From contig CALXRL010000077.1 in assembly GCA_944390735.1 (NCBI GenBank), forward strand, positions 1-64,000: a stretch of DNA of 64,000 nt, written 5' to 3'. The stretch comes from an uncultured Victivallales bacterium (lineage in GTDB: Bacteria > Verrucomicrobiota > Lentisphaeria > Victivallales > UBA1829). The translations under genes were made by a program, and so were the position numbers. Below are positions 25,908 to 59,946 of this stretch, piece after piece (the first letter of the stretch is position 1; the number at the start of each line of letters is the position of its first letter). The notes beneath the pieces were generated by a model. The model was not told where the DNA came from, made no database searches, and was given only the letters and a program-made list of their open reading frames with translations.

Positions 25908-27692
25908 ATGAAAGAACCTGTCAGCCACTCTGAACTGCCCGTCGAAATGACCTGGGACCTCTCGAAAATGTATGCCTCCGTCGACGACTGGGAAAAGGAT
26001 TTCCGGAAAATTGATCCCCTGGTGGAAAAACTTCAGGCCTTCAAGGGGAAGCTCGGCGAATCCCCCGCGACGCTCGCGGCGGCCTTCCGCGCCGAAGACG
26101 AACTGGGATTCCTCATGGAAAAGCTTCACACGTTCGCCCATCTGCGCTCGGATGAGGATACCGGAATTTCCGAAAACCGCGGACGTGTTGACCGCATCCT
26201 CTCCAAATCCGCCGAAGTCGAGGGCGAAACCGCCTGGTTCGAACCTGAGATCATGGCGATCGACCGGAAGAGATTCCAGGCATTTGCGGAGTCGCCGGAA
26301 CTGGAATTCTACAAACTCACGCTGAAGCGTCTGGAAGCCGACCGGCCGCATACGCTCTCCGAACGCGAGGAGCGCGTGCTGGGACTTTCCTCGGAGATCT
26401 TCGCCGGTCCGTACAAGGCATTCTCCGTGATGAATGATGCGGATCTGCGCTTTCCGATCGTTCATGACGATCAGGGAGGTGAGGTCCGGCTCACCCACGG
26501 CAATTACATCAAACTGCTGGAATCCTCCCACCGCGAAGTTCGGAAGGAGGCGTTCCATGGAATGTATTCTGTCTATGAACAGTTCAAAAACACCTTTGCG
26601 GCCATTCTCGACACCGCGGTCCGGACGCACACGGTCGAAGCCGGGCTCCGGAATTTCAAATCCGCTCTGGAGGCCTCTCTTCACGAGGATGCCGTTCCGG
26701 TTTCGGTGTACAACTCGCTGATCGACACCGTCCACGACAGCATGGAACCGCTGTACGACTATTTTGCATTCCGGGCGGAACGGCTCGGACTGGAAAAACT
26801 TCACATGTATGACATTCACTGTCCGCTGGTCCCCGAAGCCGCGCTCGAAGTTCCCTGGAAGGATGCCGTTTCCATGGTCAAAACGGCGCTTCGTCCGCTG
26901 GGGGATCTCTACGGGACCATTCTGGAGCGAGCGTTCAACGAACGCTGGATCGACATTCCGGAAGCCAGGGGGAAACGTTCCGGGGCCTACTCCAGCGGAT
27001 GCTACCAGTATCCGCCCTATCTGCTGCTGAACTATTCCGGAAATCTGGACAGCGTCTTCACGCTTGCCCACGAGCTGGGGCACTCGCTCCACTCCTATTT
27101 CTCGGATCACGCCAACGACTATCACTATGCGGGATATCGCATCTTCGTGGCGGAGGTGGCCTCCACCACCAATGAGATTCTGCTTCAGCGGCATCTGGTC
27201 TCGCAGACCAGGAGCGCGGCGGAAAAGGCGTATCTGCTGAACCATCTCATCGACACGATCCGGGGAACCCTTTTCCGGCAGACCATGTTCGCGGAATTTG
27301 AACGCGACATTCACGCCATGGCGGAAGCGGGCGAACCCCTTACGGCCGACATGCTCTCCGATCACTACTTCAAACTCAACAAACGCTATCACGGACCCGC
27401 GGTGGACCCCGATGACGAAATCCGCTACGAATGGGCGCGGATTCCGCATTTCCACTATGATTTCTATGTCTACAAATATGCGACCGGGATCTCCGCCGCG
27501 CTGGCGCTCGCGAAGAAAATTCTTGCAGGCGACACCGAAGGATATCTGCGATTCCTCAAAGCGGGCGATTCCAAGGAGGTCATTGACATCATGAAGGATG
27601 CGGGGGTTGATTTCACAACGCCCGCGCCGGTGAAAGATGCCATGAGCATGTTTGCCGATCAGGTCAAAGAGCTGAAATCGTGTCTGAAATAA
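25908..27692 (+). CDS. pepF: Oligoendopeptidase F
   Basis: Cytosolic zinc metallopeptidase (M3 family, 594 aa) that cleaves oligopeptides of about 7-17 residues. The zinc motif is TLAHELGHSLHSYF (HELGH), and the third ligand Glu lies in AEVASTTNEILL. The N-terminal PepF domain (LSKMYASVDDWEKDF...) is complete. AAGGAG precedes the ATG. The last codons overlap the next gene by 13 bases. Confidence 0.95.
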   Translation: MKEPVSHSELPVEMTWDLSKMYASVDDWEKDFRKIDPLVEKLQAFKGKLGESPATLAAAFRAEDELGFLMEKLHTFAHLRSDEDTGISENRGRVDRILSKSAEVEGETAWFEPEIMAIDRKRFQAFAESPELEFYKLTLKRLEADRPHTLSEREERVLGLSSEIFAGPYKAFSVMNDADLRFPIVHDDQGGEVRLTHGNYIKLLESSHREVRKEAFHGMYSVYEQFKNTFAAILDTAVRTHTVEAGLRNFKSALEASLHEDAVPVSVYNSLIDTVHDSMEPLYDYFAFRAERLGLEKLHMYDIHCPLVPEAALEVPWKDAVSMVKTALRPLGDLYGTILERAFNERWIDIPEARGKRSGAYSSGCYQYPPYLLLNYSGNLDSVFTLAHELGHSLHSYFSDHANDYHYAGYRIFVAEVASTTNEILLQRHLVSQTRSAAEKAYLLNHLIDTIRGTLFRQTMFAEFERDIHAMAEAGEPLTADMLSDHYFKLNKRYHGPAVDPDDEIRYEWARIPHFHYDFYVYKYATGISAALALAKKILAGDTEGYLRFLKAGDSKEVIDIMKDAGVDFTTPAPVKDAMSMFADQVKELKSCLK

Positions 27693-28606
27693 TCTTTTCC
27701 GAGCCGCTGGAGCTTCCCAGCGGACTGGTTCTGCCGTCCCGGGTTCTGCTCTCTCCGATGGAGGGAGTTCAGACTCCGGCATTCGTTCGTGCGGCAACGG
27801 CTCTTCGACTGGTCGATTTCTGGATCACGCCCTTTTATTCGGTCTCGCCTGATGCGGTCCCCTCAAAACCGGTTCTGAAGCGCCGTTTCGCGCCCTACTT
27901 CGAAACGGGATTGCCGTTTGCGGTTCAACTGATCGGGCATGCGCCGGAAGAACTGGCCGAATGTGCGGCAAATCTGGAAGAGATCGGAGTGAAGGCGATC
28001 AATCTCAATCTGGCGTGTCCTTCCAAAACGGTGCTCGGACACGGCAACGGAGGGGCTCTGCTGAAGAATCCGGATCTGCTGAAAAGGATCGTTTCGGAAG
28101 TCAGAAAAGCGATTTCCGCACGCATTTCCCTCAGCGTCAAGCTGCGCGCAGGCTTCGATTCGGATGCGGCGCTGCCGGATCGGATCACGGCGGTCGAAGA
28201 CGCGGAACTCATCGTGTTTCATTACCGGACCGTTTCGGAGAGATACTTTCCGATTTCCAATGGTCTGGAGAGGCTTGCAAAAGCGGTCGAATCGGCTCAT
28301 CATGTTCCTCTCATCGGCAATGGTGATCTTTGCTCCGCAAATGACGCGCAGCGCATGGTTCGGGAAACCGGATGCGCCGGCGTTGCTCTTGCCCGTTTTT
28401 TCCTGAAGGATCCGGGTATTCTGAATTCCATCCGGAAGGGAGAGCTCCCCTCCCCGACGGCTGCCCGCCGAGCCATGCTTGCGGAAATGAGGAACTGTCA
28501 TTCCGAGCTCGGACCTCTCCTCGAATTCGCCAGAACGGGAATGGATCAGGAGGAGTTCCGCGCCTTCCTGATCGAACTCGGAATTCGGAAGGAAAAAAAG
28601 GCGTAA
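27680..28606 (+). CDS. tRNA-dihydrouridine synthase family protein
   Basis: FMN- and NADPH-dependent enzyme (308 aa) that reduces uridine to dihydrouridine in tRNA. The Dus signature is LLSPMEGVQTPAFVR near the N-terminus, then AINLNLACPSKTVLGHGNG with the catalytic Cys, and a flavin-binding HYRTVSE...IGNGDLCSANDA. It starts with GTG inside the pepF end, so translation is coupled. It is closest in layout to the DusB/DusC branch; the exact target position cannot be told from sequence alone. Confidence 0.88.
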   Translation: MSEIIFSEPLELPSGLVLPSRVLLSPMEGVQTPAFVRAATALRLVDFWITPFYSVSPDAVPSKPVLKRRFAPYFETGLPFAVQLIGHAPEELAECAANLEEIGVKAINLNLACPSKTVLGHGNGGALLKNPDLLKRIVSEVRKAISARISLSVKLRAGFDSDAALPDRITAVEDAELIVFHYRTVSERYFPISNGLERLAKAVESAHHVPLIGNGDLCSANDAQRMVRETGCAGVALARFFLKDPGILNSIRKGELPSPTAARRAMLAEMRNCHSELGPLLEFARTGMDQEEFRAFLIELGIRKEKKA

Positions 28607-28651
28607 AAACACTCTGAACGGAACGTGTTTTCCTGAAACAATAATGGTTGA

Positions 28652-28850
28652 GCTTTTGCGGATGCCAAAAGCGGACCGGAAGTTTCGGGAAAGCAAGAAG
28701 GGAAGAACCGCTTTTCAAAGCCGTTTGCTCCCCTCGATTATTGTTGACGCACATTGCTTTTTCCGTGCTCCGCACGGCCGGCGTCTCGCCGCCGGACCGC
28801 GACAAGGACACCCTGTCCTTGACCTCGGAAAATGCTCCCGCATTTTTCCG
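28652..28850 (-). repeat. Dispersed structured element, copy A
   Basis: About 199 bases, read on the minus strand directly after the GH2 stop. In order: a hairpin GGAAAA(A)TGC/GCATTTTCC (28849-28827); CAAGGACA/TGTCCTTG; CGGCG-AGA-CGCCG with an outer CGGT/GCCG pair; a long stem with outer GAGGGGAG/CTTCCCTTC and inner CTT/AAG around TGAA; and GCTTTTG/CAAAAGC (28672-28652). The same five stems in the same order occur at 58454-58654. Several stems differ in sequence but keep pairing. It lies between convergent genes and may also end transcription from both sides. Confidence 0.8.
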
Positions 28851-28871
28851 TCTCGCAGCTTCGCTGATGGA

Positions 28872-30563
28872 TTACAAGTTGCCGTAGAGTTTCTTGACGA
28901 CATCCGCTGAGAGTTTGCGTCGGCGGAATTTGTCAAAAGAGCCGGCAAGATTCAACCCCAGCGGCTTGCAACGGATATCAGCCCCCATGCGATGGAAACT
29001 CATGGCATCATTGAACTGCCAGATCGTCAATCCGCAGATTTCATCCGGAACACTTGATACCGCCTGAATGACAGCTTCCAGATATTCCGCCTGAAATTCC
29101 TCGGACCACTGACTTCCCGCCGGATCCCGCTGTCCATAGATGCTGCAGCACCCCATCTCGCTGACCATGATCGGGGTATCTTCTCCGATCCGGTCGCGGA
29201 AGTATTTCAGAATTTTTTTCTGCATCGGAGGAATCTCATCCGGCGGTTCCACCCCCTCCAGATGTTCCCCGATCCATCCCGGATAGGTGTTGTAGGAGAT
29301 CATGTCCAGAAGAGGATGACAGATGTCATTCCCGGTACGGTTGCAGGCGAATGTCACAATACGGCTGGAATCCTCCTCCTTGATGGAACGGACCAGCTGT
29401 TCGGTAATCGCATACCCCTCCGGTGTGGAGGAATCCTGCTCATTCAGAAACGCCCAGATGATTCCGCTCGGATGATTGATGCTGTTGCGGACCATCAAAC
29501 GGGTTTGCTGTTCCTGAAGCGCCCGGAACTCCGGATCCGCCATCTGCGCCGCCGAATTTCCCCAGCCGAGACTCTCTTCCCAGACCAGCATTCCGAATTC
29601 GTCGCAAAGGTCAAGGAAGCGCTGGTCCTGAGAGTAATGACATCCCCGCACCATGTTGCAGTGAAGATCGCGCAGATTCTGAAGGTCTTCGATCATCACC
29701 TGTTCCGGCGTCGCGGGTCCGAATTCCGGATGCGATTCGTGACGGTTGAACCCCTTCAGGTAGATCGGCTTTCCATTCAGGAGCACACATCGCTTTCCGG
29801 TGCGGACCGTCCGGATGCCGAAACGCTCGATCATACGGTCGGTCCCGAATTGAACTTCCAGCGTATGCAGATGCGGATTCTCCGGCGACCAGATCCGGAA
29901 TCCCGGAACAGTGCATTCCACGCTTCCGCCCGAAATCACTTCCGCAATCCGGAACTCGTTTTCGGTGTCAAAACGGTAGCGTACCGTTTTGGTTCCCTGC
30001 GTGTCGCCGTTGAAGAGAAAGCGCAGCGAAACCTTTCCCGTTTCATGACAGAGCGTCCGCACCTGAACGCGGTCAAGAGCACATTCCGGAAGCTGATGCA
30101 GTTCCATGCTCCGGTAAAATCCGCCGAAGGCGTAGAAGTCGTAGTAGGGAAGGAAAAGTTTCATTTTTTCGGGATCGAAATTATTGTCGATCGCGGCGGT
30201 GATGACGTGTCTTCCGGCTTTCAGAGGCCCCGTTTCAAATTCGACTCCGCTGTACGGAAGATTGGTGAATCCGACCTCTTTTCCGTCGATGCGGAAGCGC
30301 GCCCGCAGACCGATTCCGCCCACCTTCAGGATTCCGCGCGGTGAATCCTCCGTCAGCAGAAATTCGCGACGGTAAAGTCCGGTTCCCCGTTTGCAGCGAT
30401 ACGCCGGCGTGGTATCGAAGGTTCCGGGAACCGTCATGACATCCTCGGGAACAAAGCCGGTTTCATCGACCTCTTCCAGAAAGGTCCCCTCGCAGAAGCG
30501 GAACGCCCAGATTCCATTCAGATCCGTAATGGAACGACCCGGGTACAGCGGATACGAACGCAT
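28872..30563 (-). CDS. Glycoside hydrolase family 2 enzyme (beta-glucuronidase/beta-galactosidase-like)
   Basis: A 563-aa retaining glycosidase with the GH2 layout: sugar-binding jelly roll (about 1-170), Ig-like domain, and TIM barrel. The acid/base Glu is about residue 375 in FLNEQDSS and the nucleophile Glu about 469 in MVSEMGCC. GFNRHESHPEFG matches the GH2 signature. There is no signal peptide, so it is cytosolic and should act on imported oligosaccharides. The ATG at 30563 has AAGGAG; the longer frame upstream is ignored. It is divergent from an AraC regulator that probably controls it. Confidence 0.88.
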   Translation of the reverse strand: MRSYPLYPGRSITDLNGIWAFRFCEGTFLEEVDETGFVPEDVMTVPGTFDTTPAYRCKRGTGLYRREFLLTEDSPRGILKVGGIGLRARFRIDGKEVGFTNLPYSGVEFETGPLKAGRHVITAAIDNNFDPEKMKLFLPYYDFYAFGGFYRSMELHQLPECALDRVQVRTLCHETGKVSLRFLFNGDTQGTKTVRYRFDTENEFRIAEVISGGSVECTVPGFRIWSPENPHLHTLEVQFGTDRMIERFGIRTVRTGKRCVLLNGKPIYLKGFNRHESHPEFGPATPEQVMIEDLQNLRDLHCNMVRGCHYSQDQRFLDLCDEFGMLVWEESLGWGNSAAQMADPEFRALQEQQTRLMVRNSINHPSGIIWAFLNEQDSSTPEGYAITEQLVRSIKEEDSSRIVTFACNRTGNDICHPLLDMISYNTYPGWIGEHLEGVEPPDEIPPMQKKILKYFRDRIGEDTPIMVSEMGCCSIYGQRDPAGSQWSEEFQAEYLEAVIQAVSSVPDEICGLTIWQFNDAMSFHRMGADIRCKPLGLNLAGSFDKFRRRKLSADVVKKLYGNL

Positions 30564-30633
30564 GGTTGTCTTCTCCTTGTTGTAATTTGCAGAATTTGAA
30601 TTGATGTTTTCGTCCGTTTTTCTTAATTTGCTC

Positions 30634-30661
30634 TTGTTTTTTTGTTTTTCAATGATATAAA
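30634..30661 (+). promoter_or_regulatory. Promoter for the first AraC regulator
   Basis: TTGTTT (30634-30639) and TATAAA (30656-30661) with a 16-base spacer, in the divergent region between the GH2 gene and the regulator. Confidence 0.5.
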
Positions 30662-30706
30662 TGATGTTAAAAAGATATTTTTGACGCAAAGACAAGGAGT
30701 CTCCAC

Positions 30707-31528
30707 ATGCAGAGTCTGACCATCCGCCGACTGGGATTTCCGGAGAGGCCGCCATCCCGTCTGCCGTTCTATCCGCGCTCCTGCGGCATCAATGTTTTTC
30801 ATGGAGAACGGGAGGAGAATTCGCCCAGTCCGATCACGGAGATCTGCTGGATTGCGGAAGGGAGCTGTCTCTTTGAAGTCGGCGGGAAATCGTATTCTGT
30901 TCAGCAGAACGAATCCATCTACCGCCTGCCGGGAGAGAGGCAGATCAAATGTTCCGCTCCCGGCGGTCGAACCGTTGTTTACTGGGCGGCGATTGACGGA
31001 GAGAATGCCGCGGATTTTCTGCTCTCCTACGGCTATCCGCGCGGACCGCTGAAATCCGGAACATGTCCGGTGCATCTGTTTGAAGAAATTCAGCATTCGC
31101 TGGACACTCTTCTGCCCTCGGATCTGCGACGTCTTGTCGCGCTTTACACGGAACTGATCGGCATGATGGGCGAAGAGCACGATCCGCTCAGCCGGAAGGG
31201 AGTTCTCTTCCGGGATTGTCTCTCCCTGATTCAGAACCGCTACCAGGATCCGGAGCTCAATGTGAATACTCTTGCGGAGGAGCTGAAGGTCCATCGCACG
31301 ACGCTCGACCGCCTTTTCCTGCGCGAAATCGGAATTCCGCCGAACCGCTATCTGTTGAAAATCCGTCTTCACCATGCGCTCTCTCTTCTGTGCTGCACGA
31401 AGGATCCGATTGCGGAAATCGCTTCGAAGACCGGTTTTTCGCGTTCGAACTATTTTGACCGGGTCTTCCGGGAGGCCATGGGGTTTTCTCCGATGGAATA
31501 CCGGAGAAGAAAAAGGGAGGGAATCTGA
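30707..31528 (+). CDS. AraC-family transcriptional regulator (first of two)
   Basis: A 273-aa DNA-binding protein with an N-terminal cupin-like sensor (about 20-130) and a C-terminal AraC double helix-turn-helix. The first HTH is NVNTLAEELKVHRTTLDRLF and the second IAEIASKTGFSRSNYFDRVF, followed by the usual GFSPMEYRR end. It should respond to a sugar and regulate the divergent GH2 gene and perhaps the downstream operon. CAAGGAG precedes the ATG. The next regulator starts 2 bases after its stop. Confidence 0.9.
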   Translation: MQSLTIRRLGFPERPPSRLPFYPRSCGINVFHGEREENSPSPITEICWIAEGSCLFEVGGKSYSVQQNESIYRLPGERQIKCSAPGGRTVVYWAAIDGENAADFLLSYGYPRGPLKSGTCPVHLFEEIQHSLDTLLPSDLRRLVALYTELIGMMGEEHDPLSRKGVLFRDCLSLIQNRYQDPELNVNTLAEELKVHRTTLDRLFLREIGIPPNRYLLKIRLHHALSLLCCTKDPIAEIASKTGFSRSNYFDRVFREAMGFSPMEYRRRKREGI

Positions 31529-54667: not shown

Positions 54668-57593
54668 AATTTCCGCATCTGGCACTTCTTCTGGCGGCAT
54701 GTCTTTTCGAGGGAGCTCCGGCCCGGGGCTCCGGTCCGGAACCGGCCCCGGGACACGAAAATGCCCCCGTCATTTTTTTTGCTCATTTCATGCCGCAGGT
54801 CTCCTGGGGGGACATTCATGCGAACGGGCACATCGGCGGGAATGCCGACGTTTTTCCTTTCTATCCGCAGTCGGGAACCAAAGTGGAACAAATGAAACGT
54901 GCCATGCTTGCCGCACTTGACAGCGGAATCAACGGTTTTCAGTTTCTCACGGTCGTTCCGCAGGAAGCATGGGAAGCTGCCGAAGAAGTCCGGAAAGAGA
55001 CCGGAAAACTCTTCTATATCGCCCCCGAATGGTGTGACATGGGACCCGATCGGAAAAAAGCGGCCGAACGAATTGCCGACTTCCTGAAAAAATATGGGAA
55101 CAGTCCTTTTGTCTACCGCCGGAATGGAGTTCAGGTGCACTTCCTCTACAATCACGGGAAATGGGCGGGGGAAAACACCAGCAGAAGCGAAGTGTGGCTG
55201 ACGTGAAGAAAATGCTGGCGGATCAGGGGCTGAAAGTCCTGCTTGTCCCGACCGTCGGAGATCTGGGGAAAACCGTGCTGGACCGTCCCGATCGCGCCCA
55301 TGCGCCCTTTCCCCCGTTCCGGAAAACAGAATTTGGAAAACTTCGCTTCCTCAAGGAAACCTGCTGGGACGGCGCCACCGACCTGAACTCCGGTTCCGAT
55401 ATGCGCGATGACCAGATCCGGGAAATCAAAAAACGTCTTGCGAATCTCGGCAAACCCTTTCTGTTTGTCCCCGCCCTCCGTTCGATGTATGACAGTTCCA
55501 ACCGCTTTGCCCAGGCAATTCACTGCCGTGGCGAAGGCTTCCGTGTTCTGCGGCGCGATCTGAAACAGTGGATCGAGCACGGATTCCGCATTTTCACCTT
55601 CTCCACCTGGAATGATGTGAACGAAACCATTCTCATGCCGTCCAGCCGCAATGTCTGGGGGCTCAACGAAATGATCCGCTACTATCATGAAAAGGCGGAG
55701 AACGGGAAAAGTCCCTTCCCCTCCCCCCGTTTTCTCTTCTCGTACGAACCGGAGGTCCTGCTGGGAGATGAGGGATTCTTTCAATTTCTTGTTCTTCCGG
55801 AAACTGGAACGCTCAGCTGTGACTACCGGGCCAATGTCTCGTTCCGAGATCTGAACGGGAAGGAGGTTGACGCCTTCAGTCTGCTCGCCCAGATTGACAA
55901 TGAAAAACACGACTCCTTCAATGAACACCGCTTCGACACCACGTTTCTTGATACGCCGGAAATGATTCTGGTCCCCTATGTAAGCGTTACCCAGATCGAC
56001 AAATCCTCGGGAGCATCCCGGAAACTGTACGATGCGGTCCGTCTGGCCCCGATCCGGGTCCGCTACAACCGTCTCAGCTATTTTGTGCCTTACACGATCT
56101 CGCTGAACCATGTGAATCCGGCCTCCAGACTTCAGCTTTCATGGGCGGATTCCACCTCCGGAATTCTCGTTTCCGATACGGGCACCCTGCCGAATCTGAA
56201 GCTGGAAGTGAATGGAAACGACGAGTTCCGAAGAGTCAATTTTGCGGAAAGCTCTCTGCATATCGGTGCGGTACGCGCCTCCGACGCCGAGGGCAAAGCC
56301 CTGAAATACTTTCTCCGCTTCAGTGTCGACACACCGGTGAAAGCACACCTTTCCCTGCGGAACGGAACCATTGATTCCTCCTATACGCCGTTCTAGGATC
56401 TGAACCGGGCGTATCATAAGATCGGTTCGGAGAAAGCGGATCTGGCACTGCCTGCCGCCTACCGGAGTCTTCCGCTGGTTGTGGAGATCAGTGGAAGTCC
56501 GGAGACGGAATGGGAACTTTCCCTTCCCGGCTCCCCCGTGCTGAAGGGAACCATCCGCTCCCTTGCGGAACAGCCGATTCTCAAGGAGATGCTTTCCGGG
56601 GAAAAGAAAAATGTTCTTTCCCTGCAGCTGACCACGGACACCACCGATCCCAACATTGACTTTCCGATTCCGAAATCGGCAGTTGTGCTCCGTCCGCTGC
56701 CCGTGCAGGAGGGGAGCGATTCAATGCGGGTCATCCACTCCTGGGGACTGGACCGGAATGAAAGGATCTGCTTCTCCAATCCCGTCGCATTGAAAATCCG
56801 AAAGTATGAGGGAAGCCGGGTCCCGGTCCGCTTTCTGCAGACGGGCGGCACGTTTGATGATTTTGTCAACAATCACAACGCCGCCTCCGAAAATCAGTTC
56901 ACCCGGAACGACATCCGGACACGCGAGCTTGACTCCTCCCTGATCGCCTATCATCTTCTCACCTTTGACGAAGGCGCGGGCAAAGAGGTGAACCATCACG
57001 GAACAGCGCATCAGCTCGGACGCGCCTGGCTCGAAGGCAGTTACCGCTGGAACCCGAACGGCTGGAGGAACGCCTCCCTGAAACTGGAGGGAGGAGTTCT
57101 CCGGATGCGTTCCAAAACCATGCCGCACGGCTGTCTGACCGTGAGCATGAGAATCCGTCTGGAGGATGCGGCTTCCTCCCCGGAAAGCGCCGTTCTGGAG
57201 GATGCGGATCACTATCAGATGAAACTTTCCGGGGCCTTTCATCTCTCCGTGGAAGGGGACGGTCGTGTGACTCTTTGGCGTCCCATCTCCGGAAAAGACG
57301 CGAGAATCACCTCCACCGTTCCTCTGAAAAAAGGCTGGAACCACATTGCCGCGGTCTATGATCTGGACTCCCTGAAACTCTATCTCAACGGAGTGCCGGC
57401 GGGCGAAAAGAAAAATCTGAAACCGGCCTATGCCAGAACCCATTCCACTCCGGTCGTCGGCAGTTCGAGAATCCGCAAAGGAAGTTCGGGCCCCCTCTCC
57501 TTCCGGGGGGAAATCGACCAGCTGGAAATTATCGGAAGCGCCCTGAATGACTCCGACATCCGGGACCTCTATCGGAACGGAGTCTGGAAGTAA
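54664..57593 (+). pseudogene. Broken secreted GH71/GH99-like hydrolase with LamG-like C-terminus
   Basis: One ancestral gene of about 975 codons, split by two lesions. The first part (54664-55206) has a signal peptide (MKFPHLALLLAACLFEGAPA) and starts a GH71/GH99-like barrel (VIFFAHFMPQVSWGDI, LDSGINGFQFLTVV), then runs to a stop. From about 55195 the match continues in the next frame (DVKKMLADQGLKVLLVPTVG through FTFSTWNDVNETILM) after one extra base in GTGTGGCTGAC. At 56394-56396 an in-frame TAG interrupts SSYTPF/DLNRAYHK, where a Tyr codon would fit. The last part (to 57593) carries a LamG-like jelly roll (LTFDEGAGKEVNHHG...WNHIAAVYDLDSLKLYLNG). Sequencing error cannot be excluded. Confidence 0.8.
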
Positions 57594-57678
57594 CGGCGGA
57601 AACAACGAGTTCCGGAGATGGGAACGGAGGCTTCCTGCCTCCGCCTTCCCCGGAAATGACAGAGAAAGGAACCGGATC

Positions 57679-58431
57679 ATGAAACAGATGCAGAACAAAA
57701 ACAGTCTCCTCCGTTCAAATCTCCGAATGAAAGAGAGATCCACCGGGGAGAGACGGAAAACAGAATTCACTCTGATAGAGCTCCTTGTGGTTGTGGCGAT
57801 CATCGCCATCCTGGCGGGTCTTCTTCTGCCGTCGCTGAACAAGGCGAGACAGGCGGGCCTGGCGGCCTCCTGTACCAACAACCTTAAGCAGATGGGGCTT
57901 TATTTTCACAACTACACAAGCGATTCCGACGACAATCTGCCCTTCAACACCACCAATCCGACCAGCCGGGATCCGGCTCAGCAGAACTGTCTTATCTGGG
58001 TCCTCCAGAAACTCTACCCGAAAGTTTTTCTCAGCGACCGGGATTACAGCGGCAAGAAAGGCCGTCAGTTCTGGCACTGCCCTGCCGCTCCTCTAGCCAC
58101 CTTTTCCGAGGCGGGCGGACAGGGCCCCAGCGACTTCGGCACCAATTCCCGCATGGGCAGCAACAAAAACGGCGAATGGGCCTATCGTCTTCCCCAGTCC
58201 GCCCCCCAGCCGTCCCGCAAGTTTCTTCTTGCGGACATCCGCCTGAACGGACGTCCGAACCACAATCCGGAGAGCTTTCAGGCAATGCTGGAATCAGCCC
58301 GGCACAACAACACGCTCAACATGTCCTTCTTTGACGGTCATGTCGAACGGAAAAGCAACATCGCCTACATCTGTCGCTGGGCCAGCTGGGGCAGTTACAA
58401 CTCCGACAAGGACCAATATCCCTGGAACTGA
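57679..58431 (+). CDS. Prepilin-like (H-X9-DG) protein 3
   Basis: A 250-aa protein with a basic leader of about 30 residues, the prepilin helix [20 protein letters not shown], a conserved [20 protein letters not shown] segment and the tail [14 protein letters not shown] (exact H-X9-DG). Residue -1 is Glu, not Gly. AAAGGAACC precedes the ATG. It is intact although the hydrolase gene before it is broken. A structured repeat element follows its stop. Confidence 0.88.
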
Positions 58432-58453
58432 TCCCCTTGCACAAAAAAATATA

Positions 58454-58654
58454 CGGAAAAATGCGTTAGCATTTTTCTCGGGTCAAGGACGGTGTCCTTG
58501 TCGCGGTCCAGCGGCGAAACGCCGACCGTGCATCGCACAGAATCTTACAAAATAAAAAAATGCGAGAGGCAAAAACCGCTTTGAAAAGCGGTTTTTTCCT
58601 CTCGCGCTCTCCTCTTTCCCTAAACTTTTCAACCGCCTTTGCGTTCGCAAAGGC
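58454..58654 (+). repeat. Dispersed structured element, copy B
   Basis: About 201 bases starting 22 bases after the pseudopilin 3 stop. Stems: AAAAATGC-GTTA-GCATTTTT (58457-58476); CAAGGAC-GGT-GTCCTTG (58484-58500); CGGCG-AAA-CGCCG with outer CGGT/ACCG (58504-58528); a long stem with outer GCGAGAGG/CCTCTCGC (58562-58605) and inner AAAAACCGCTT-TGAA-AAGCGGTTTTT; and GCCTTTGC-GTTC-GCAAAGGC (58635-58654). Order and spacing match copy A at 28652-28850. The inner stem of the fourth with its T-run can act as a terminator in both directions for the two convergent operons. Confidence 0.85.
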
Positions 58655-58680
58655 CCACAGAATCAGAAGCTCCCGCAGAA

Positions 58681-59946
58681 TTACTCGGAACGGAGGACCT
58701 CAATCGGATTCTGCTGCGCGGCCTTCCACGCCGGATAGGTCCCGAACAGCACGCCGATCACCGCACTGATGACCAGCGCCAGAACAATGAACCAGAGGGA
58801 AAACGCCGTCGGCATATCGGCATAGAGCGTCACCATCTTGGCGATGAAGATCCCGAGCGCCACTCCGGTTCCGCCGCCGAGCGAGGTCAGAAAAATGGTT
58901 TCAAACAGGAACTGCCGGATGATATCCCCCTTCTGCGCCCCGAGCGCGCGCCGCGTTCCGATCTCCTTGCGCCGCTCATACACATTGGCAAGCATGATGT
59001 TCATGATGCCGATTCCTCCGACCAGAAGCGAAATGCCGGCAATCGAACTCATGACAATCGTGAAAATGTTCTGCGTGGCCTCCTGCTGCTTCAGAAGATC
59101 CAGCGGAACGAGCATGGTCCAGTCCTTAGTCTCCGAATGAACCTTGCTCATATAGGCGGCGATTCGTTTGGAGGTGTAGTCGATGTAGCTGACATCCCGG
59201 ACCTGCACGATGAAGGTGTCGAAATCGACATCCTCCACGACCGGATTCCGACTGCTCGTGTCGTAGGCTTTCTTTCCGAAAATGGAATCCGACGCCATGA
59301 TCGTCACGAAAATGCAGTCGTTCGGACTCCCGACTCCGGGAATATTGGTGCCATGACTGTTCTCCAGAATCCCCACGACACGGAAAATATCCTTCTCGAC
59401 CATGATCGTGGAACCGATGATGTCTTTCTGTCCGAGAGAGAAAAGAGAACGCTTCACGTTGAGGCCGATCACGCAGGTGTTGTTGATCCCGTCGATATTC
59501 GAAAGCCAGCGGCCCTGAACAATATCGGAACGGCTGAACTTCAGGAAGTCGATCGAGACCCCCACCAGCGAGAGGTCCAGCCGCTTCATCCCGCTGAGAA
59601 TTTTCTTCCGGGAGTTGCGGGCGACGGACACCTGCTCCACATTGTCCATTCTCCGGATATGATCCAGGTCCACCCGGGTAATGCCGTAGCGGTCCATCAG
59701 ACTCTGACCGGAGGAGTCGGAGACATCTTTTCCGGAAGCGGGCGGCTTTCGCGTGGCGACAATGATCTTGTCCGTTCCCATCGCCTCGATCTGGGCGAGC
59801 GCCTGAATCTTCGCGCCTTCCGAAATGGCAAGCATGGCAATCACGCTGCCCACTCCGAAGATAATGCCCAGCGATGTCAGAATGGACCGCACCTTGTGCA
59901 GCATCAGATTGTGAAACGAAAGCCAGAGCTGGTCGCGAAGACGCAT
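58681..59946 (-). CDS. MacB-type ABC transporter permease
   Basis: A 421-aa inner membrane protein with the MacB/FtsX layout: one N-terminal helix (ILTSLGIIFGVGSVIAMLAI), a large periplasmic domain of about 230 residues, and three C-terminal helices (IFTIVMSSIAGISLLVGGIG; ALGIFIAK; LWFIVLALVISAVIGVLFG), ending GTYPAWKAAQQNPIEVLRSE, a strong family match. It lacks a fused ATPase, which is the separate gene 1 base upstream. It is the last gene of the secretin operon. Confidence 0.93.
   Translation of the reverse strand: MRLRDQLWLSFHNLMLHKVRSILTSLGIIFGVGSVIAMLAISEGAKIQALAQIEAMGTDKIIVATRKPPASGKDVSDSSGQSLMDRYGITRVDLDHIRRMDNVEQVSVARNSRKKILSGMKRLDLSLVGVSIDFLKFSRSDIVQGRWLSNIDGINNTCVIGLNVKRSLFSLGQKDIIGSTIMVEKDIFRVVGILENSHGTNIPGVGSPNDCIFVTIMASDSIFGKKAYDTSSRNPVVEDVDFDTFIVQVRDVSYIDYTSKRIAAYMSKVHSETKDWTMLVPLDLLKQQEATQNIFTIVMSSIAGISLLVGGIGIMNIMLANVYERRKEIGTRRALGAQKGDIIRQFLFETIFLTSLGGGTGVALGIFIAKMVTLYADMPTAFSLWFIVLALVISAVIGVLFGTYPAWKAAQQNPIEVLRSE

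Follow-up and report, generated by a model that had tools for sequence, protein, structure and literature searches.

The element and its surroundings

The window, a stretch of 64,000 nucleotides from an uncultured Victivallales bacterium, contains two copies, A and B, of an intergenic element of about 200 nt, each flanked by convergent genes (Table 1). The copies align end to end with 82% mean column identity and, as an earlier note on this DNA had recognised, they share a series of hairpins in the same order; the five stem-loops counted there are six, a small GTGC/GCAC hairpin following the third. The exchange of a C-G for a T-A pair in the last stem is real, and two other species have the T-A version in their orthologues of copy A. 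A difference between the copies in the fourth stem of the original count is likewise present, but it partly reflects decay in copy A, whose orthologue in a related genome (G001) has a perfect GCGAGGGGAG/CTCCCCTCGC stem. Copy B folds much more stably than shuffled sequences do (z -8.1), copy A less markedly so (z -2.5). Both copies had been placed directly after carbohydrate-locus genes, which is only partly correct: copy A adjoins the genes of a Dus tRNA-dihydrouridine synthase and a GH2 glycosidase, and copy B is located between genes for a pilin-like DUF1559 protein and a MacB/FtsX-type permease.

Table 1. Positions in the window of the two copies, their modules and hairpins (hp), and the flanking genes.
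Feature	Positions	Strand	Evidence
Dus tRNA-dihydrouridine synthase, flanks copy A	27680..28606	+	Pfam PF01207, E 1.6e-38
Copy A, whole composite (M1 + M2)	28649..28852	-	R1/R2/R3 covariance models
Copy A, module M2	28649..28740	-	R2 64.6 bits; degenerate relative to its orthologues
Copy A, hp6 GCTTTTG/GCAAAAGC	28652..28672	-	sequence, orthologues
Copy A, hp5, long, stem in two parts	28694..28736	-	sequence, alignment A3
Copy A, module M1, four hairpins	28759..28852	-	R3 86.3 bits, E 7.8e-15
Copy A, hp4 CCGTGC/GCACGG	28763..28777	-	sequence, alignment A4
Copy A, hp3 CCGGCG/CGCCGG	28778..28795	-	sequence, alignment A4
Copy A, hp2 CAAGGAC/GTCCTTG	28803..28821	-	sequence, alignment A4
Copy A, hp1 GGAAAAATGC/GCATTTTCC	28827..28849	-	sequence, alignment A4
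GH2 glycosidase, flanks copy A	28872..30755	-	Pfam PF02836, E 2.3e-33
Pilin-like DUF1559 protein, flanks copy B	57547..58431	+	Pfam PF07596, E 6.2e-08
Copy B, whole composite (M1 + M2)	58452..58657	+	own-genome BLAST, R3 and R2 matches
Copy B, module M1, four hairpins	58452..58544	+	R3 92.3 bits, E 5.8e-16
Copy B, hp1	58455..58478	+	sequence, fold
Copy B, hp2	58484..58500	+	sequence, alignment A4
Copy B, hp3, with one A-C mismatch	58508..58525	+	sequence, alignment A4
Copy B, hp4	58527..58540	+	sequence, alignment A4
Copy B, module M2	58559..58657	+	R2 100.6 bits, E 9.5e-22
Copy B, hp5 GCGAGAGG..AACCGCTTTGAAAAGCGGTT..CCTCTCGC	58562..58605	+	fold; near-symmetric, R2 matches the opposite strand too
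Copy B, hp6 GCCTTTGC/GCAAAGGC	58635..58654	+	sequence, fold
MacB/FtsX-type permease, flanks copy B	58681..59946	-	Pfam PF12704, PF02687

Modules and hairpins

The unit consists of two modules, M1 (about 93 nt) and M2 (about 95 nt), and M1 alone, M2 alone, M1-M2 and tandem M1-M2 all occur. M1 is a string of four hairpins with conserved linkers in the order hp1 - CGGGT - hp2 - (T)CGCGGTC - hp3 - GTC - hp4 - GAAA; its stems are GGAAAAATGC/GCATTTTTC, CAAGGAC/GTCCTTG, CCAGCG/CGCTGG and GTGC/GCAC, and the loop of the third hairpin is conserved as GCGRNA. In M2 a long hairpin in two parts, GCGAGRG...AACCGCTTTGAAAAGCGGTT...CTCTCGC, is joined through a conserved TTTCCCNAAACTT linker to a short one, GCCTTTGC/GCAAAGGC. 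A further subfamily, M3, follows the same alternation of four hairpins and three linkers with other stems and is often arranged tail-to-tail with M1 (in L020, L058, L126, L130, L135 and other loci).

More elaborate forms are found as well. One member (L045:1352-1617, genome G016) carries a second hairpin nested inside the loop of hairpin 1, and at several loci (L192:3149-3300, L193:9-222, L016, L019, L025, L026) M1 is followed by short tandem repeats of hairpin 4 plus its tail (GCGAAGCACGAAATCTTTTTT). In genus g9, two larger Y-shaped palindromes with three-way junctions, which have the linkers GACGAGA and TCGAGAGC in common and differ in their stems, lie between an M1 and an M3 that point towards each other; this composite of about 400 nt (L043:1190-1597, L199, L094, L109, L116, L131, L215) was not found in the loci of the window's genus.

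Structural constraint

Among 150 aligned M1-like copies the partners pair in 98.2% of cells, and 356 cells have changed on both sides compared with 65.6 in shuffles, although such covariation counts are inflated by the relatedness of the copies and the alignments are fitted to the model. When the partner columns of this set are slid by 1-3 positions, pairing drops to 36-47% and the both-side-changed cells to 8-33. An independent alignment from other families of the order contains 202 such cells, against 55.6 in shuffles. Entire stems are replaced between subfamilies: hairpin 1 appears as GGAAAAATGC, GGCGGAATGC, GGGGAACAGGC or GAGCC, and hairpin 2 as CAAGGAC, CAGGTC, CAGGACT or CCAGGGC. The slide control together with this whole-stem replacement makes a chance origin of the pairing untenable: M1 stems change their letters yet keep pairing, and structure matters. 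The selection on structure that the earlier note suspected therefore has strong covariation behind it, in a family with tens of copies per genome.

On the other hand, perfect palindromes might also arise without selection, through mutation templated by the hairpins as the DNA replicates. In the window's genus paralogues are often as close to each other as orthologues or closer; gene conversion may contribute there, and conversion or hairpin-templated repair could therefore have produced part of the compensatory change. In a second genus orthologues are more alike than paralogues in nearly all pairs, so that gene conversion is not the explanation in that lineage.

Copy number and taxonomic spread

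A BLAST search of its own genome with copy B returned 66 matches on dozens of contigs, and each genome examined in the window's genus gave 40-54. With covariance model R1, M1 was counted 29, 27, 25 and 46 times in four species of this genus, 43, 67, 3 and 109 times in four genomes of the second genus and once in a third genus; none was found with this model in 27 other genomes of the family. M2 is present in four of nine genomes searched, all of the window's genus. The broader model R3 recovers diverged M1 members in three families and in 21 of 137 genomes of the order Victivallales. Among the matches listed in a scan of GTDB genomes with a 21-nt pattern, hosts were Victivallales/Lentisphaeria MAGs, plus a handful in other phyla that look like chance matches to so short a pattern. 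The covariance-model search of the genome and its relatives that the earlier note had proposed thus yields tens of further copies per genome, and both the "two-copy" description and the carbohydrate link are artefacts of a 64 kb view. Copies A and B are two of about 30 in the genome. They belong to a family of interspersed repeats in Victivallales that is modular, built of several hairpins and present in high copy number, and we found no description of such an element from Lentisphaerota in the open-access literature. A phage origin was considered and dropped, the exact M1 pattern being absent from a viral contig collection.

Genomic placement and retention

Gene neighbourhoods were called by codon usage with a simple program written for this analysis. 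Of 75 element islands, 44 lie between convergent genes, compared with 35 of 284 other gene pairs taken as background (p 1e-15); divergent genes flank just 4 of the 75. Where the flanking genes run in the same direction, M1 is antisense to them in 15 of 19 islands (hand count, p 0.02).

Syntenic loci in sister species were located through their flanking genes (Dus, permease, ppk, aspartate kinase) and not through the element itself, and all six still carry it, one in decayed form. No empty site was found among the syntenic loci examined, two apparent ones being decayed copies that a simple pattern had overlooked, and no target-site duplication could be shown. Over 13 syntenic pairs M1 is 92.4% identical, as opposed to 71.2% at four-fold-degenerate sites of the flanking genes and 56% in the 5' flank. 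One locus forms a growth series, with a single M1 in genome G019, two tandem M1 in G020 and M1 + M3 in G022; the duplication in G020 (L161:1160-1498) includes about 18 nt of 5' flank (CTTGTTATATTTCAGAGA) and has a period of 131 nt.

DNA hairpins or RNA

An RNA working from one strand tolerates G-U pairs but not A-C pairs. In the hairpin stems of the element G-U and A-C number 38 and 30 in the M1 set, 8 and 9 in other families of the order, and 6 and 8 in M2; these counts omit the foot pairs of hairpin 1 and the pairs around hairpin 2, which do not belong to a clear hairpin stem. With only the hairpin 1 foot pair omitted the count is 60 to 34, and there is room for a mild one-strand preference of pairing. 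Seven tRNAs from the same loci, a small control, gave 11 G-U and 0 A-C (p 0.005). Infernal models generally score G-U over A-C, so that a search bias would run in the opposite direction. That G-U is as rare as A-C indicates that pairing is constrained equally on both strands: the molecule concerned is hairpin DNA, or else RNA transcribed from each side. Covariation alone is consequently no proof of RNA in this family.

These counts bear directly on the "probable RNA" of the earlier note. A structured non-coding RNA gene, or a 3'-UTR RNA, acting from one strand would agree with the stable fold of copy B, the strong covariation and the conserved linkers and hairpin 3 loop. We nevertheless consider it quite improbable, as G-U does not exceed A-C, the copies lie in both orientations and the hairpins stand apart instead of joining into a single compact fold. 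Moreover, an Rfam scan of the window gave 0 matches, sensitive Rfam scans of the element and its relatives gave nothing near gathering except an rRNA gene in L105, and a promoter search found none before copy B and only a weak one at copy A; the absent Rfam match and the symmetric G-U and A-C counts together rule against an RNA gene. The idea of a coding remnant, to which some ORFs starting within the element (e.g. in L258) might lend credit, has practically no probability in view of the covariation and the intergenic position, and the inner length of hairpin 2, which is 7, 8, 9 or 10 nt depending on the copy, breaks any frame. Predicted ORFs do start inside elements or cross them (L258:1801-3903, L193:40-222), and automatic annotation may for this reason create false N-termini or small hypothetical proteins at such sites.

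Origin and mobility

Our best overall explanation, which we hold with a probability of about 0.5, is a BOX/BIME-like repeat of mobile origin that is now held at gene 3' ends and would serve there as a hairpin barrier working in two directions or as a site for a protein that binds DNA hairpins; that we are dealing with a repeat family of this kind is in itself very probable. The elements would have spread long ago as non-autonomous repeats with a BOX/BIME way of life, partly via tandem duplication, and we consider such a mobile origin likely.

Alternatively, they might be non-autonomous selfish repeats of MITE or REP type that are merely tolerated at gene 3' ends and keep their structure since the hairpins, in single-stranded DNA, are recognised by a putative transposase or recombinase. 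The high copy number in some lineages next to near-absence in sister genera, the tandem and tail-to-tail inverted copies, as in BIMEs, the strand-symmetric pairing and a convergent location like that of BOX, RUP and IS (PMC3049150) are all compatible with this possibility, and convergent enrichment alone is also shown by tolerated parasitic repeats (Croucher 2011, PMC3049150). We regard it as unlikely all the same: a copy is kept at all six syntenic loci tested, with no empty site, the element changes more slowly than four-fold sites, and the transposase domain Y1_Tnp (PF01797) does not follow the copy number of the element. G000, G002 and G022, the last with 109 copies, lack this domain (MAGs 89-94% complete, in which a single gene could be missed), yet it is present in many element-free genomes and genera, and no M1 lies close to the Y1_Tnp loci checked. 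Mobilisation by a RAYT was rejected on these grounds, Y1_Tnp showing no correlation with copy number.

An autonomous parent transposon was also sought, and none with M1 ends was found in the stretches examined; on three contigs of G070 the copies face each other or lie in tandem, and the genes next to them and in between are ordinary host genes. A 14.7-kb stretch bracketed by inverted M1+M3 arrays (G000:C15:3227-17888 and G002:C136:394-15053; L192, L193) was rejected as a transposon too, its genes being of host type by their translations. This stretch is 99.5% identical between two different species whose orthologous proteins elsewhere are often 75-97% identical, and represents either a recent transfer or binning cross-contamination.

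A possible two-way role at gene ends

The hairpin string may now be kept since it works from both sides. In this role it would halt or delay RNA polymerases that run towards each other, shield both mRNAs from 3' exonucleases, or do both, and such a two-way string fits the pairing on two strands, the convergent position, the retention and the slow change alike. We put forward this two-way 3'-end role only tentatively as the main effect of the family. A binding site for a protein, of the host or of the mobiliser, that recognises DNA hairpins through their linkers and through the GCGRNA loop conserved in hairpin 3 comes next and is possible, though not what we expect; that the element has no host role at all appears doubtful. 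In a broader and speculative form, the family might be an order-wide class of structured DNA in which entire stems are swapped but the architecture, the linkers and a Watson-Crick pairing equal on both strands persist. Purifying selection would hold it between convergent genes, and its reader would be either a putative protein other than a RAYT or the two transcription complexes that converge there.

The family might also consist of canonical intrinsic terminators that act in both directions and whose repetition is incidental. M2 has AACCGCTTTGAAAAGCGGTT followed by T-rich tails on both strands, a terminator is predicted on the minus strand at hairpin 1 of copy B, and the placement is convergent. 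We think this account improbable, however, because M1-only elements of the second genus mostly have no U-tailed hairpin, and the plan of four hairpins and linkers is more than a terminator requires. The element supplies a U-tailed hairpin at 22 of 64 convergent gene ends in the window's genus and at 3 of 20 in the second genus, and in G003 the M1 beside the permease gene stands after a separate strong terminator. Canonical terminators thus seem to explain only part of the role of the element, and for this reason mRNA 3'-end protection or a block of antisense read-through, in line with roles that have been hypothesised for REPs (PMC3733652), would be as likely as termination itself.

Comparison with known systems

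By description rather than by sequence, the element resembles BOX (boxA-boxB-boxC) of Streptococcus pneumoniae, which is modular and non-coding, has strong predicted hairpins and modules that can be absent or repeated, and is intergenic with an excess between convergent genes (PMC3049150). The Victivallales modules likewise occur singly, jointly and in tandem, with the convergent excess given above (44/75 vs 35/284), but M1 differs from BOX in that its four hairpins form a fixed string and whole stems have been replaced throughout an order. Prokaryotic MITEs are similarly small, non-coding, folded and present in high copy number (PMC10969869); in contrast to MITEs, the Victivallales unit as a whole has no terminal inverted repeat, its ends ACGGAAAA... 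and ...GAAATC or ...GCAAAGGCTC, as read from the alignment, not being complementary. The Acido-Lenti-1 RNA motif (RF01687) is a structured motif reported from Lentisphaerae (PMC2864571), but Rfam scans of our element give no match to it, and integron attC sites differ in architecture.

REP/BIME repeats associated with RAYTs share with the element the many intergenic palindromes, the inverted tail-to-tail pairs with spacers, seen here as M1/M3 pairs, the location mostly between convergent and same-direction genes, and heterodimers with different stems (PMC3733652, PMC8266576). REPs are, however, single palindromes of 20-50 nt tagged GTAG or CGTC (PMC3733652, PMC8266576), whereas the Victivallales element has four hairpins, GGT/GGTC-type linkers and no correlated RAYT; alignments A2, A4 and A5 show neither a conserved GTAG nor a CGTC tag common to the hairpins, and their linkers are CGGGT, CGCGGTC, GTC and GAAA. 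The usual picture of a small hairpin repeat is a lone REP palindrome whose transposase is known. The Victivallales case is a four-hairpin string with strong covariation, spread through an order of poorly studied bacteria without that transposase and slower to change than four-fold sites. With it one can ask whether the repeats found where genes converge are parasites that the host tolerates or barriers that serve it in both directions.
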